Shown in pieces: positions 3,056 through 6,781 of a stretch of DNA of 39,558 bases. The notes under the pieces were generated by a model. That model saw only the letters and a list, made by a program, of their open reading frames with translations. It was not told the DNA's origin and searched no databases. Within the stretch, counting starts at the first letter, position 1. Each line of letters begins with the position of its first letter. Origin of the DNA: a virus; IMG/VR virus record IMGVR_UViG_3300009285_001247, positions 1 through 39,558 of that record, one strand, 5' to 3'. The position numbers were made by a program, and so were the translations under genes.

Positions 3056-3685
3056 GTGGCGCTAGCCGCTCTCTCGGACGTGAAGCGCGTTCTGCGGATC
3101 ACCACCGAGGACGCTACTCGCGATACTGAACTGACGGCGAAGCTCGCCGTCGCAGAGGAGTGGTTCCGTATCCGCGCACGCGGAGAGTTCGACGACACCG
3201 CACCGGCGACAGCTCAGTTCTGGTCTATCCGCTATGGCACGGTAGTCCACCTGCCAATCCCCGGATCGACGGTCACGGCCGTTCGTGCTGGTTCCGCGAC
3301 AGACCCGTCGACGCTGGGTTCTGACTCATACTCGGTCATGGATGATCGCCGTGTTCGCGTTGGCCGCATTGACCCGTGGCCCCGCGACCCACGCGAGCAG
3401 GAGCCTCTGGGCTGGGCGGAGCGTCCTTACTACGAACTCGTCGAGATCGACTACACGCCGCCATCTGTCTCGGTTGCCGTCCGTGACGGGATCGCGAGCA
3501 TCGCTGCCGCAATGTGGAAGAGGTCTGGTGGTGGGGAGACCGGCAGTCAGAACATCAAGTCCGAGAAGATCGGGGACTACTCGTACACGCTCGAATCCGG
3601 GTCGCAGACGTCTGGAGAGGATCTCTGGAAAGACGGACTGAGGCTGTTGCATCCCTTCATCGGGCCCAGGATTTCGAGCACATAA
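3056..3685 (+). CDS. head-tail connector protein (gp6-like adaptor)
   Basis: A 209-residue mostly alpha-helical protein starting with GTG at 3056 (MALAALSDVKRVLRI). The opening 'L-x-D-V-K-x-x-L' helix, the next helix with AKLAVAEEWFRIRA, the middle beta part with the inter-strand GTVVHLPIPGS, and the final helices with AAMWKRSGGGETGSQNIKSE are the layout of HK97 gp6-type adaptors, which form a ring under the portal and join head to tail. It sits where such genes occur, after the capsid end and before the stopper genes, although the reductase gene is wedged between. Confidence is good for the family and moderate for the exact name. Confidence 0.65.
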   Translation: MALAALSDVKRVLRITTEDATRDTELTAKLAVAEEWFRIRARGEFDDTAPATAQFWSIRYGTVVHLPIPGSTVTAVRAGSATDPSTLGSDSYSVMDDRRVRVGRIDPWPRDPREQEPLGWAERPYYELVEIDYTPPSVSVAVRDGIASIAAAMWKRSGGGETGSQNIKSEKIGDYSYTLESGSQTSGEDLWKDGLRLLHPFIGPRISST

Positions 3686-3732
3686 TTCCTGCGCAAAGTA
3701 GAGAGAATCGTTCCGTGACGTGCGGGTGCTCG

Positions 3733-3741
3733 GGATAGAAT
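3733..3741 (+). promoter_or_regulatory. GGATAGAAT -10-like element upstream of the reductase gene
   Basis: TAGAAT at 3736-3741 is preceded by GGA, close to the GGGTANNAT pattern seen elsewhere. It lies 8 bases before an in-frame TTG at 3750, which is therefore favoured as the reductase start over the GTG at 3720 that lies upstream of the element. No convincing -35 box is seen. Confidence 0.4.
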
Positions 3742-3749
3742 CAATACTC

Positions 3750-6332
3750 TTGCGTGACCGTCTAAGCACATTCGCCTGGGACATCTTCCGGCAGAAGTAC
3801 GCACACAGCAAGTCTGAGTCGTGGGCGGACGCAGCGAACCGGGTCGCGACAAACGTGATGGCGGAGTTGAGCTACGGGCCACAGTCGCCCGAGACTGAGA
3901 GAATCGAGCGGTACATTCGCGAGCGCAAGTTCATTCCCGGTGGGCGCTACCTGTACGCCGCTGGGCGTCCGCTCCATCAGGTCTGCAATTGTCTACTCCT
4001 CAGAGCTGAGGATTCGCGCGAAGGTTGGGGAGAACTCTGGAAGCGTGCAGGTGTCGCGCTCATGACAGGCGCTGGTGTTGGTGTCGAGTACTCTCGAATC
4101 AGGGAGGCAGGTTCCGCAATCTCTCGCACTGGCGGACAGGCGTCCGGGCCATGCGCACTCATGCACACCGTGAACGAGATCGGGCGTCAGGTGATGCAGG
4201 GTGGTTCGCGTCGCTCCGCGATCTGGGCGGGTCTTGCGTGGGACCACCCAGATATTGAGCTGTTCTTGCGGATCAAGGACTGGTCACCGGAACTGCGCGC
4301 ATTACGAGACCGCGAGCCGACGTTCCCTGCACCGATGGAGCTAACGAACGTAAGCATCCGTCTGGACTCGCGCTTCTTTGAAGCTGTATCAGATGCGCGG
4401 CACCCAGACCACGGCCGCGCGACGGATCTGTACCGCGACGCCGTCCGGAGAATGTGCCGTACAGGTGAGCCAGGGTTCTCTGTAGATATGGGAGCGGACG
4501 CGGATGAGCACATGAGAAACGCACCAGTTGCAGGCAGCACACACATATTGACAGACTCTGGGTATGTGACCGCGCGCGAACTCGCTGAAAGAACGGCGAC
4601 AGTCTGGACGGGTATGCAGTGGGTACCCAATGTGCAGTTCAATAAAACGGGGTCGAATGTTCCGCTTGTCCGAGTCACAATGTCTGGCGGTCGTGTGATT
4701 GAGTGCGACCCATCTCACCCATTCATGGTTGAAAAGTGGTGTGGCGCTGGGAAACAGAACCGCAGAATCATCTCTGTCGAGCGCGTACCTGCGTCCTCTC
4801 TTTGCCATAACGACATCATCGTGTCTACAACACCGCAACCGTATGTGTCTGATGCTCTCAATCGGGAAGATTACACACTTGGCTGGATATACGGTGACGG
4901 GTCGTTCACTAAATCGGGTGGTGCAGATCTGACTCTCTGCTCACCAGAATCTCAAGCATGTGCGTCAGACATCGTCGGGTACAACTCGGAGGCGTGCCCC
5001 GACAGTCGTGGGTTTACCAGATTCTATTTCAGTGTCTCAGAACGGTGGACAGGTCGGAGCAAGGACACATATCCTGTTGATGGCGGGAGCCCGTCATTCA
5101 TCGCAGGTCTTTTTGATGCTGATGGTAACTGGGAACCCACACAGAAACGGGTTAGACTCGCATCAGTACATCCGTCTTTCTTGCACGGTGCCCGACGCGC
5201 GCTTGAGGCGATAGGCATTCTTGCACACGTGTCTAGGTGCAGTCGCGAATCTGGGTTTGGTGGTCGCGCGTCGTGGCAGCTTGTTGTCTCTTCCGGTTCG
5301 GTGCGCAGGTTCTCAGATATCGTTCCGACCCGACGACTGCAAATAGTCATTGGAGACTACACGCCATACCGTACATCACACGTGCGTGTTGTTGGTGTCG
5401 ATGATGCTGGATATGGTGATGTATTCTGTGCCGATGTGGGTGTAAGCGAGCATACATTCATGGCTGAGGGTGTGATTGTGTCGAACTGCACGGAAATCAC
5501 CACCGCAGACTCTGACGATATCTGCAATCTCGGATCTATCAATCTCGCCCGGGTGCGATCACTCGACGAGATGCGGGATGTGGTCGATGCGGCAACGCTG
5601 TTCCTGCTCGCAGGATCTGAGTACACGTCCCTTCCGTACAAAGAAGTAGGCGCTGTCCGGGACAAGAACCGTCGCCTAGGGCTGGGAGTCATGGGCGTGC
5701 ATGAGTGGCTGCTCGCTCGCGGGCGGTCGTACGCACCAGACCCGGAGCTTGGAGAGTGGCTCGCAGAGTACGCCACATCGACAGACATCGCCGCAGGCTG
5801 GGCAGATGAGCACTCACTCTCACGCCCTGTCAAGACGCGTGCAATCGCCCCGACCGGAACGATCGGAATCATCGGCGAGACGACAACCGGCATTGAGCCT
5901 GTCTACTGCACCGCGTACCGTAGGCGCTATCTGGTCGGGACGCGCTGGCATGAGCGGACGATTATCGATCCGACAGTGGCGCGACTCGTGCGGGACGTGG
6001 GCATTGATCCAGAAGGCATCGAGGACGCACACCGGCTCTCATTCGATCCCGAGTTCCGGATCGAGATGCAGGCATGGGTGCAGACGTTCGTCGACCACGG
6101 GATCAGCTCGACCGTCAATCTCCCGGAGCCGCTTGGCGCAGAAGATGCGGACGCATTCGGTGCTTCGCTCCTCCCGATCCTGCCGCGACTGCGCGGCATC
6201 ACCGCATATCCGTCTGGCGCTCGCGGCCTCGACCCACTAGAACCGACGTCATACGCAGACGCTCTCCGGGCGGAGAGCGTTGCGTTCGAGGAGTCTGAAG
6301 AGCGCTGCGTGGGCGGCGCCTGCGGCGTCTGA
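3750..6332 (+). CDS. nrdJ: ribonucleotide reductase, class II (B12-dependent) type, interrupted by an intein
   Basis: Reduces ribonucleotides to deoxyribonucleotides for phage DNA synthesis. The N-extein has class II signatures: FIPGGRYLYAAGR, VCNCLLLR, GAGVGVEYS, GGSRRSAIW and HPDIELFL. The intein (4524-5486) ends just before the CTEI cysteine, which corresponds to the thiyl-radical Cys of the family, and DICNLGSIN follows. The C-extein has APTGTIG and TTGIEPVYCTAYRRRY and ends with the redox tail CVGGACGV. Spliced length would be about 539 residues, short for the class. No small radical subunit gene is seen in the window, which fits class II. TTG 3750 gives MRDRLSTFAWDIF, matching the usual start of the family; GTG 3720 is the alternative. 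Its place among neck genes is odd. Confidence 0.85.
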   Translation: MRDRLSTFAWDIFRQKYAHSKSESWADAANRVATNVMAELSYGPQSPETERIERYIRERKFIPGGRYLYAAGRPLHQVCNCLLLRAEDSREGWGELWKRAGVALMTGAGVGVEYSRIREAGSAISRTGGQASGPCALMHTVNEIGRQVMQGGSRRSAIWAGLAWDHPDIELFLRIKDWSPELRALRDREPTFPAPMELTNVSIRLDSRFFEAVSDARHPDHGRATDLYRDAVRRMCRTGEPGFSVDMGADADEHMRNAPVAGSTHILTDSGYVTARELAERTATVWTGMQWVPNVQFNKTGSNVPLVRVTMSGGRVIECDPSHPFMVEKWCGAGKQNRRIISVERVPASSLCHNDIIVSTTPQPYVSDALNREDYTLGWIYGDGSFTKSGGADLTLCSPESQACASDIVGYNSEACPDSRGFTRFYFSVSERWTGRSKDTYPVDGGSPSFIAGLFDADGNWEPTQKRVRLASVHPSFLHGARRALEAIGILAHVSRCSRESGFGGRASWQLVVSSGSVRRFSDIVPTRRLQIVIGDYTPYRTSHVRVVGVDDAGYGDVFCADVGVSEHTFMAEGVIVSNCTEITTADSDDICNLGSINLARVRSLDEMRDVVDAATLFLLAGSEYTSLPYKEVGAVRDKNRRLGLGVMGVHEWLLARGRSYAPDPELGEWLAEYATSTDIAAGWADEHSLSRPVKTRAIAPTGTIGIIGETTTGIEPVYCTAYRRRYLVGTRWHERTIIDPTVARLVRDVGIDPEGIEDAHRLSFDPEFRIEMQAWVQTFVDHGISSTVNLPEPLGAEDADAFGASLLPILPRLRGITAYPSGARGLDPLEPTSYADALRAESVAFEESEERCVGGACGV
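4524..5486 (+). mobile_element. intein with a two-motif LAGLIDADG homing endonuclease
   Basis: The inserted segment encodes 321 residues and reads in frame with the reductase. It begins PVAGSTHILTDSG, which aligns with splicing block A but has Pro in place of the usual Cys or Ser. Block B is GRVIECDPSHPF, with His at position 10. Endonuclease motifs are LGWIYGDGSF (intein residues 119-128) and FIAGLFDADGNW (192-203). Block F is DVFCADVGVSEHTF with Cys302, and the segment ends VSN before the extein Cys, so the penultimate His is Ser. The insertion is at the reductase's catalytic cysteine, a typical target. Its base composition looks more AT-rich than the exteins, suggesting acquisition. The unusual first residue points to a class 3-like mechanism or a weakened intein. 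Confidence 0.85.
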
Positions 6333-6436: not shown

Positions 6437-6781
6437 ATGGCGCGTGTTGATATCCCGGTGACGACGATCACGCGCGATGGCGTGGCACCACCGTCTCAGG
6501 TCTCCTCGGTTGCAGCGGACGACCACGTGATCGACGGCAACGACGGCAGGGTCTTCCTGGAGGTTGAGAACGTGGATGGCGCGAGCGCGCACACGGTGAC
6601 GGTGCTCACGCCCGGGACCGTGGCAGGTCTGGCGATTGCTGACCTGGCGGTCTCGGTGCCGCTCAGCGCAATTCGGTGGATTGGTCCCTTCCCGACAACT
6701 GTGTTCAACCAGACGGGAACCGATGACGTGCACATCGACATCGCGACCGCAAACCTTCGCTTCCGAGCGTACAAGATCTGA
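6437..6781 (+). CDS. small beta-rich structural protein
   Basis: The 114-residue protein starts with ATG at 6437 (MARVDIPVTTITRDG). It has regularly spaced beta-strand segments, VFLEVENVDGASAHTVTVLT and DDVHIDIATANLRFRAYKI, and a GPFPTTVFNQ turn, with no enzyme motif. Similar short, all-beta proteins occur next to capsid or neck genes in phages of high-GC Gram-positive hosts, where they are thought to be decoration or minor head proteins. It starts the neck and tail run that continues to 16439. The role is inferred from context. Confidence 0.5.
   Translation: MARVDIPVTTITRDGVAPPSQVSSVAADDHVIDGNDGRVFLEVENVDGASAHTVTVLTPGTVAGLAIADLAVSVPLSAIRWIGPFPTTVFNQTGTDDVHIDIATANLRFRAYKI

Follow-up and report, generated by a model that had tools for sequence, protein, structure and literature searches.

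A proline-first intein family in viral ribonucleotide reductases that probably splices by a class 3-like route

The window, a viral sequence of 39,558 nucleotides (IMG/VR record IMGVR_UViG_3300009285_001247, positions 1-39,558), encodes a ribonucleotide reductase (3720..6332, + strand, as for all features given below; 870-residue precursor with a tentative start codon) that is interrupted by a 321-residue intein (Pro1-Asn321, 4524..5486). The intein begins with proline, raising the question of how, and whether, an element without an N-terminal nucleophile leaves its host protein. The initial annotation of this locus offered two answers, a divergent class 3 intein with an incomplete catalytic triplet or a partly disabled element. 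Based on comparative sequence analysis, we propose that the intein is functional and mobile, and that it quite probably splices in a class 3-like manner starting at an internal cysteine, Cys302.

Removal of the intein would yield a reductase of 549 residues (870 - 321), correcting the approximately 539 given previously. The extein matched the NCBIfam family NrdJ_Z (E=5e-61) and the T. maritima NrdJ structures 1xje/1xjk (E=4e-32), and retains the conserved motifs; the dimeric B12-dependent NrdJ is its nearest match, which would place the enzyme in reductase class II. In an alignment with T. maritima NrdJ, the residue following the intein, Cys+1 (5487..5489), falls on the cysteine of NPC(G)EI, the thiyl-radical cysteine of these enzymes. 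This agrees with the earlier identification of the +1 residue as the radical cysteine, and since the two residues align, the reductase would be inactive unless the intein exits precisely.

To delimit the intein we took the C-terminal extein and surveyed its 80 best relatives among viral contigs, a sample unbiased with regard to inserts. The uninterrupted sequence LRNA/C[TC]E (slash, insertion point) was found in 70 of these, and seven carry an insert at exactly the LRNA/C point, each with proline as its first residue (7/7); these seven comprise six recovered by parsing and L051, which is identical with the contig of L028. Because 70 intein-less homologues read through the site in this way, the intein boundaries are exact, with proline as residue 1 and cysteine as residue +1. 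A sequencing error at 4524 or a misplaced residue-1 boundary was ruled out by these empty sites together with 27 relatives of the intein, in all of which the position that might have read TGC instead of CCA encodes proline. The third-position GC content of the intein (GC3, 51%) differs from that of its extein (69%), suggesting that the intein is a newcomer to this gene. The reductase gene itself is flanked by a head-tail adaptor gene (3056-3685) and a gene with matches to tail-protein families (6437-6781), and lies within the structural module away from the replication genes at 35-39 kb.

A LAGLIDADG endonuclease is embedded in the HINT splicing domain of the intein. Pfam searches recovered LAGLIDADG_3 above the cut-off and Intein_splicing below it. 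The catalytic aspartates of the two endonuclease motifs, Asp125 (4896..4898, in LGWIYGDGSF) and Asp200 (5121..5123, in IAGLFDADGN), are invariant in the A1 alignment. AlphaFold2 models of the window intein and of the precursor of a related mini-intein, L030 (140 residues), were confident, with pLDDT values of 90.4 and 90.9. The L030 model adopts the HINT fold, matched many intein structures with Z scores of 14-19, and places residue 1 on residue 1 of the RecA and MchDnaB1 inteins. Inteins of all three classes were among the matches of this fold search, which does not separate the classes, and class 1, 2 and 3 structures also scored alike in PDB profile searches, which do not decide the class either.

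Position A:1 of the intein is proline (codon CCA, 4524..4526), so that the N-terminal scissile bond is Ala-Pro. Block B (D62-P-S-H65-P-F67, in CDPSHPF) has Asp62 at B:7 (4707..4709), a position held by Thr in class 1 and class 2 inteins and by Asp in 15 of the 16 class 3 sequences used. It also contains His65 at B:10 (4716..4718), a residue kept in nearly all inteins, and Phe67 at B:12 (4722..4724), where class 3 inteins have Trp and where Phe is ordinary outside class 3. Block F, DVFCADVGVSEH, includes D-V-F-C302, with Cys302 at F:4 (codon TGT, 5427..5429) aligned with the class 3 cysteine and with the F:4 cysteine of the Cys1 inteins described below, and His310 at F:13 (5451..5453), which lies eight residues past Cys302, the spacing in the class 3 sequences used rather than the seven of class 1. 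The intein ends in VIVSN/C, with Val319-Ser320-Asn321 at G:5-G:7 (5478..5486), Ser occupying the usual place of the penultimate His and Asn being the cyclizing residue. The initial annotation had thus read these positions correctly, including Pro at the first codon, Cys302 at the fourth position of block F, and Phe, Val and Ser in place of the class 3 Trp, Thr and His.

Profile scans of viral contigs showed that these features characterise a family, hereafter the Pro1 family, of 28 distinct viral inteins including that of the window, all at one site in one reductase subfamily. Pairwise identity among the first 21 distinct members was 36-60%. Pro1 is present in all 28; Pro1, His65, Phe67, Cys302, His310 and Asn321 are invariant among the 26 aligned members, as is Cys+1, and the two further members outside this alignment agree by reading; such conservation goes well beyond what chance would give. 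The remaining positions vary within narrow limits, with Asp (21), Glu (4) or Ser (1) at B:7, Ile (20), Val (5) or Leu (1) at G:5, and Ser (25) or Ala (1) at G:6. Nine distinct members are mini-inteins of 130-167 residues that have lost the endonuclease and retained the splicing residues, and L028 likewise retains them alongside a damaged second endonuclease motif. The intein of the close family pair L020/L021 has a dN/dS of 0.062; with an open reading frame and invariant catalytic residues, this ruled out a frameshift or pseudogene reading. The same pair, from related phages, has an intein dS of 0.31, fourfold that of the flanking extein (0.07), which is the pattern expected if the intein moves or converts on its own. 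The family looks phage-borne, and a single scan of genome contigs with the family profile and only two peptide patterns returned zero relatives.

Since the splicing residues are fixed across 28 inteins, including mini-inteins, and since empty sites are seamless and dN/dS is 0.06, splicing in the Pro1 family very likely works, and the window intein is a conserved, probably functional variant and not a decaying copy. A failing intein, with splicing lost or reduced to cleavage and the reductase dead or supplied in trans, is suggested by the missing class 1 nucleophile and penultimate His and by two altered class 3 marks. We consider it highly improbable, given that these very states are fixed across all 28 inteins, even in mini-inteins incapable of their own homing, that the frame is open and dN/dS is low, as noted above, and that the conserved motifs of the reductase extein are retained. 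There is also a precedent for such deviations in the AceL NrdHF intein (PMC7891396). The suggestion of a disabled element therefore finds no support.

If the intein splices, its route has to differ from that of class 1, which requires Cys, Ser or Thr at residue 1, where the Pro1 family has proline. For inteins lacking such a nucleophile two routes are known, class 2 and class 3. The operational definition of class 3, applied to 1701 inteins, is the absence of Cys at A:1 together with Cys at F:4 (PMC7891396). The Pro1 family shows both features, with Pro1 in 28/28 and Cys F:4 in 26/26. Characterised class 3 inteins use Cys F:4 with Trp B:12 and Thr G:5, the WCT triplet (PMC5222942, PMC7664689), of which the latter two are missing from the Pro1 family (Phe at B:12 in 26/26; Ile, Val or Leu at G:5). 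Neither residue is universal in class 3, as 6.1% of the published inteins deviate at B:12 and 4.6% at G:5 (PMC7891396). In the split intein AceL NrdHF, B:12 is Met and the His residues of blocks F and G are both missing, yet it splices by class 3 and its half-time is about 4 minutes; changing its Thr G:5 to Ala slows splicing about tenfold (PMC7891396). Class 3 inteins with Cys+1 exist as well, Bvi IcmO being one (PMC5222942). Beyond Cys F:4, two further traits of the Pro1 family are of class 3 type, namely Asp or Glu at B:7 (25/26) and the Cys-to-His spacing of eight, compared to seven in class 1. Proline itself is acceptable in class 3, since the intein of the PhoH-like gene of L150, a mycobacterial genome sequence, starts with Pro and carries both Trp B:12 and Thr G:5.

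Part of this pattern would also fit a class 2-like route, in which Cys+1 attacks the Ala-Pro bond directly and Cys302 merely activates, like Asp F:4 of KlbA. To our knowledge, all known class 2 inteins are KlbA orthologues, and the Pro1 family resides in a reductase. KlbA inteins use Cys+1 directly and have Ala1, Ser G:6, Thr B:7 and Asp F:4, the latter two being required (PMC4031507). The Pro1 family shares with them the absence of a residue-1 nucleophile, Ser G:6 (25/26) and an invariant Cys+1, the last two being class 2 marks that the initial annotation had overlooked, along with the ordinary nature of Phe B:12 outside class 3. The Pro1 family differs from KlbA in having Pro at residue 1, Asp, Glu or Ser at B:7 and Cys at F:4, and it shows the class 3 Cys-to-His spacing. 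Conservation of Cys F:4 is in itself no proof of a role as first nucleophile, because related inteins that bear Cys1 conserve it too and have no need of it in that role. As both residues required in class 2 are missing, while the class 3 marks that are absent are dispensable or variable in that class, we favour the class 3-like route and regard direct attack by Cys+1 as improbable.

On the class 3-like route, the thiol of Cys302, assisted by His65, would attack the Ala-Pro1 amide and hold the N-extein as a thioester. The N-extein would then be passed to Cys+1, which would form a second branch and, in the spliced enzyme, serve as the radical cysteine of the reductase. Cyclization of Asn321, with assistance from His310 and from Ser320 in the place of the penultimate His, would release the intein, and an S-N shift would join Ala to Cys, thereby restoring the radical cysteine. 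As a tertiary amide, the Ala-Pro1 bond is readily twisted, and this may be why the proline is invariant.

A further question is where such an intein came from. A tblastn search of phage genomes identified NrdA inteins at the homologous site SNL/CxEI in ICP1, PH357, Barbavirus, Certrevirus and others, and these match the Pro1 family over both the splicing and the endonuclease domains. They belong to a same-site Cys1 family, in which Cys1 and Cys F:4 are universal among 77 readable viral loci and B:7 is Thr in 76/77. Two Cys1 inteins, L241 and L246, occur in the window's own reductase subfamily at the identical site LRNA/CTEVTS, with extein identities of approximately 47% and 39-42%. The initial annotation had missed these class 1 relatives with their F:4 cysteine. 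Like the Pro1 family, the same-site NrdA/NrdJ class 1 inteins (ICP1 NrdA, PH357, Barbavirus, others; L040-L050, L183-L262) sit before the radical cysteine and have Cys F:4, usually Phe at B:12, and Cys+1. They differ in Cys1, Thr B:7, Thr G:5 and mostly Gly at G:6, in a terminal residue that is often Gln and otherwise Asn, and in an F:4-to-end length of 18 as opposed to 19. The conserved class 1 inteins of L040-L050 and L183-L262 have two candidate nucleophiles and dispense with the usual C-terminal His-Asn.

For the splicing domain of the Pro1 family, profile-profile comparison gave a score of 126 (E 3e-22) with the Cys1 family, as opposed to 57 with class 3 and 64 with the remaining class 1 inteins; for the endonuclease domain the respective scores were 122, 74 and 104. 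All of these remaining class 1 inteins came from mycobacterial genomes, while the class 3 sequences were drawn from mycobacterial genomes, viral contigs and one phage. As the latter had been extracted by a THN pattern, Thr G:5 and His G:6 are present in them by selection and are not counted as evidence. Phylogenetic trees placed the Pro1 family as sister to the Cys1 family with support of 97/89; once the trait columns were taken out, support was 98/98 and 96/82. Taken with the sequence similarity over both domains, this suggests that the closest kin of the Pro1 family are the Cys1 same-site reductase inteins and not the WCT class 3 inteins.

These nearest kin combine Cys1 with Cys F:4 at the same site, and two of them share the window's reductase subfamily. 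This suggests that class 3-type splicing may have arisen twice, the second time among inteins of phage reductases, which we consider the leading scenario, at about even chances. The simplest history would start from a two-cysteine ancestor in which Cys1 was lost to Pro and the first step shifted to F:4, accompanied by the gain of Asp B:7 and one block F residue, thus converging on class 3 without Trp or Thr. The direction from Cys1 to Pro1 is inferred from the general occurrence of Cys1 among class 1 inteins.

Alternatively, class 3 chemistry could have been inherited from the WCT clade by a single origin, the triplet having drifted to F-C-I/V. An AU test leaves a clade of the Pro1 family with class 3 standing (p 0.43, 0.44, 0.40), albeit over a short splicing domain, and the Pro1 family has in common with DnaB class 3 inteins Asp B:7, the spacing of eight and the sequence C-x-[DE]-V-x3-[ED]-H-x-[FY]-x-A. 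The WCT inteins (Msm/Mch DnaB1, mycobacterial DnaB, and PhoH of L150, which is likewise Pro-first) also resemble the Pro1 family in lacking a residue-1 nucleophile and in Cys F:4. At B:12, G:5 and G:6 they have Trp, Thr and His where the Pro1 family has Phe, Ile/Val and Ser; they also have Ser/Thr+1 in contrast to Cys+1, mostly ATPase genes as hosts, and two more residues from block F to the end. With the profile scores of both domains (126 v 57; 122 v 74), the tree support, the host gene and the insertion site all favouring the Cys1 reductase inteins, we regard WCT descent as possible but rather doubtful. Monophyly has been reported for class 3 inteins, and polyphyly for class 1 inteins with Cys F:4 (PMC3196547). 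A graft of the WCT residues onto the class 1 intein gp41-1 failed, and direct evolution from class 1 to class 3 was considered improbable (PMC7664689). The sister families, Cys1 with Cys F:4 and Pro1 with Cys F:4 in the same host gene and site, offer a plausible path, in which the second cysteine was already present when the first was lost.

If a second origin is correct, the two families represent a natural before/after pair, and swapping few residues would put the switch in mechanism to the test. Class 3-like splicing in the Pro1 family would also make both Trp B:12 and Thr G:5 dispensable for this route, and the mini-inteins of the family (130-167 residues), having no N-terminal Cys, would be of use in protein engineering. 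A similar case with a proven class 3 route is AceL NrdHF, which shares a reductase host, an atypical triplet and the lack of a penultimate His (PMC7891396). Unlike the Pro1 family, AceL NrdHF is split, interrupts the beta subunit at another site, and has Ala1, Ser+1 and a retained Thr G:5. We found no description of the Pro1 family in the literature covered; the 1701 class 3 inteins compiled in PMC7891396 may already include Pro1-family members among their approximately 5-6% of triplet deviants. The two types of intein can also occur together, as the L017 reductase carries, in addition to its Pro1 intein, a second, ordinary class 1 intein at another site in the N-extein (~960-2200; CLPFDSPV...YLVHN/S), so that one protein contains both Cys1 and Pro1 inteins.
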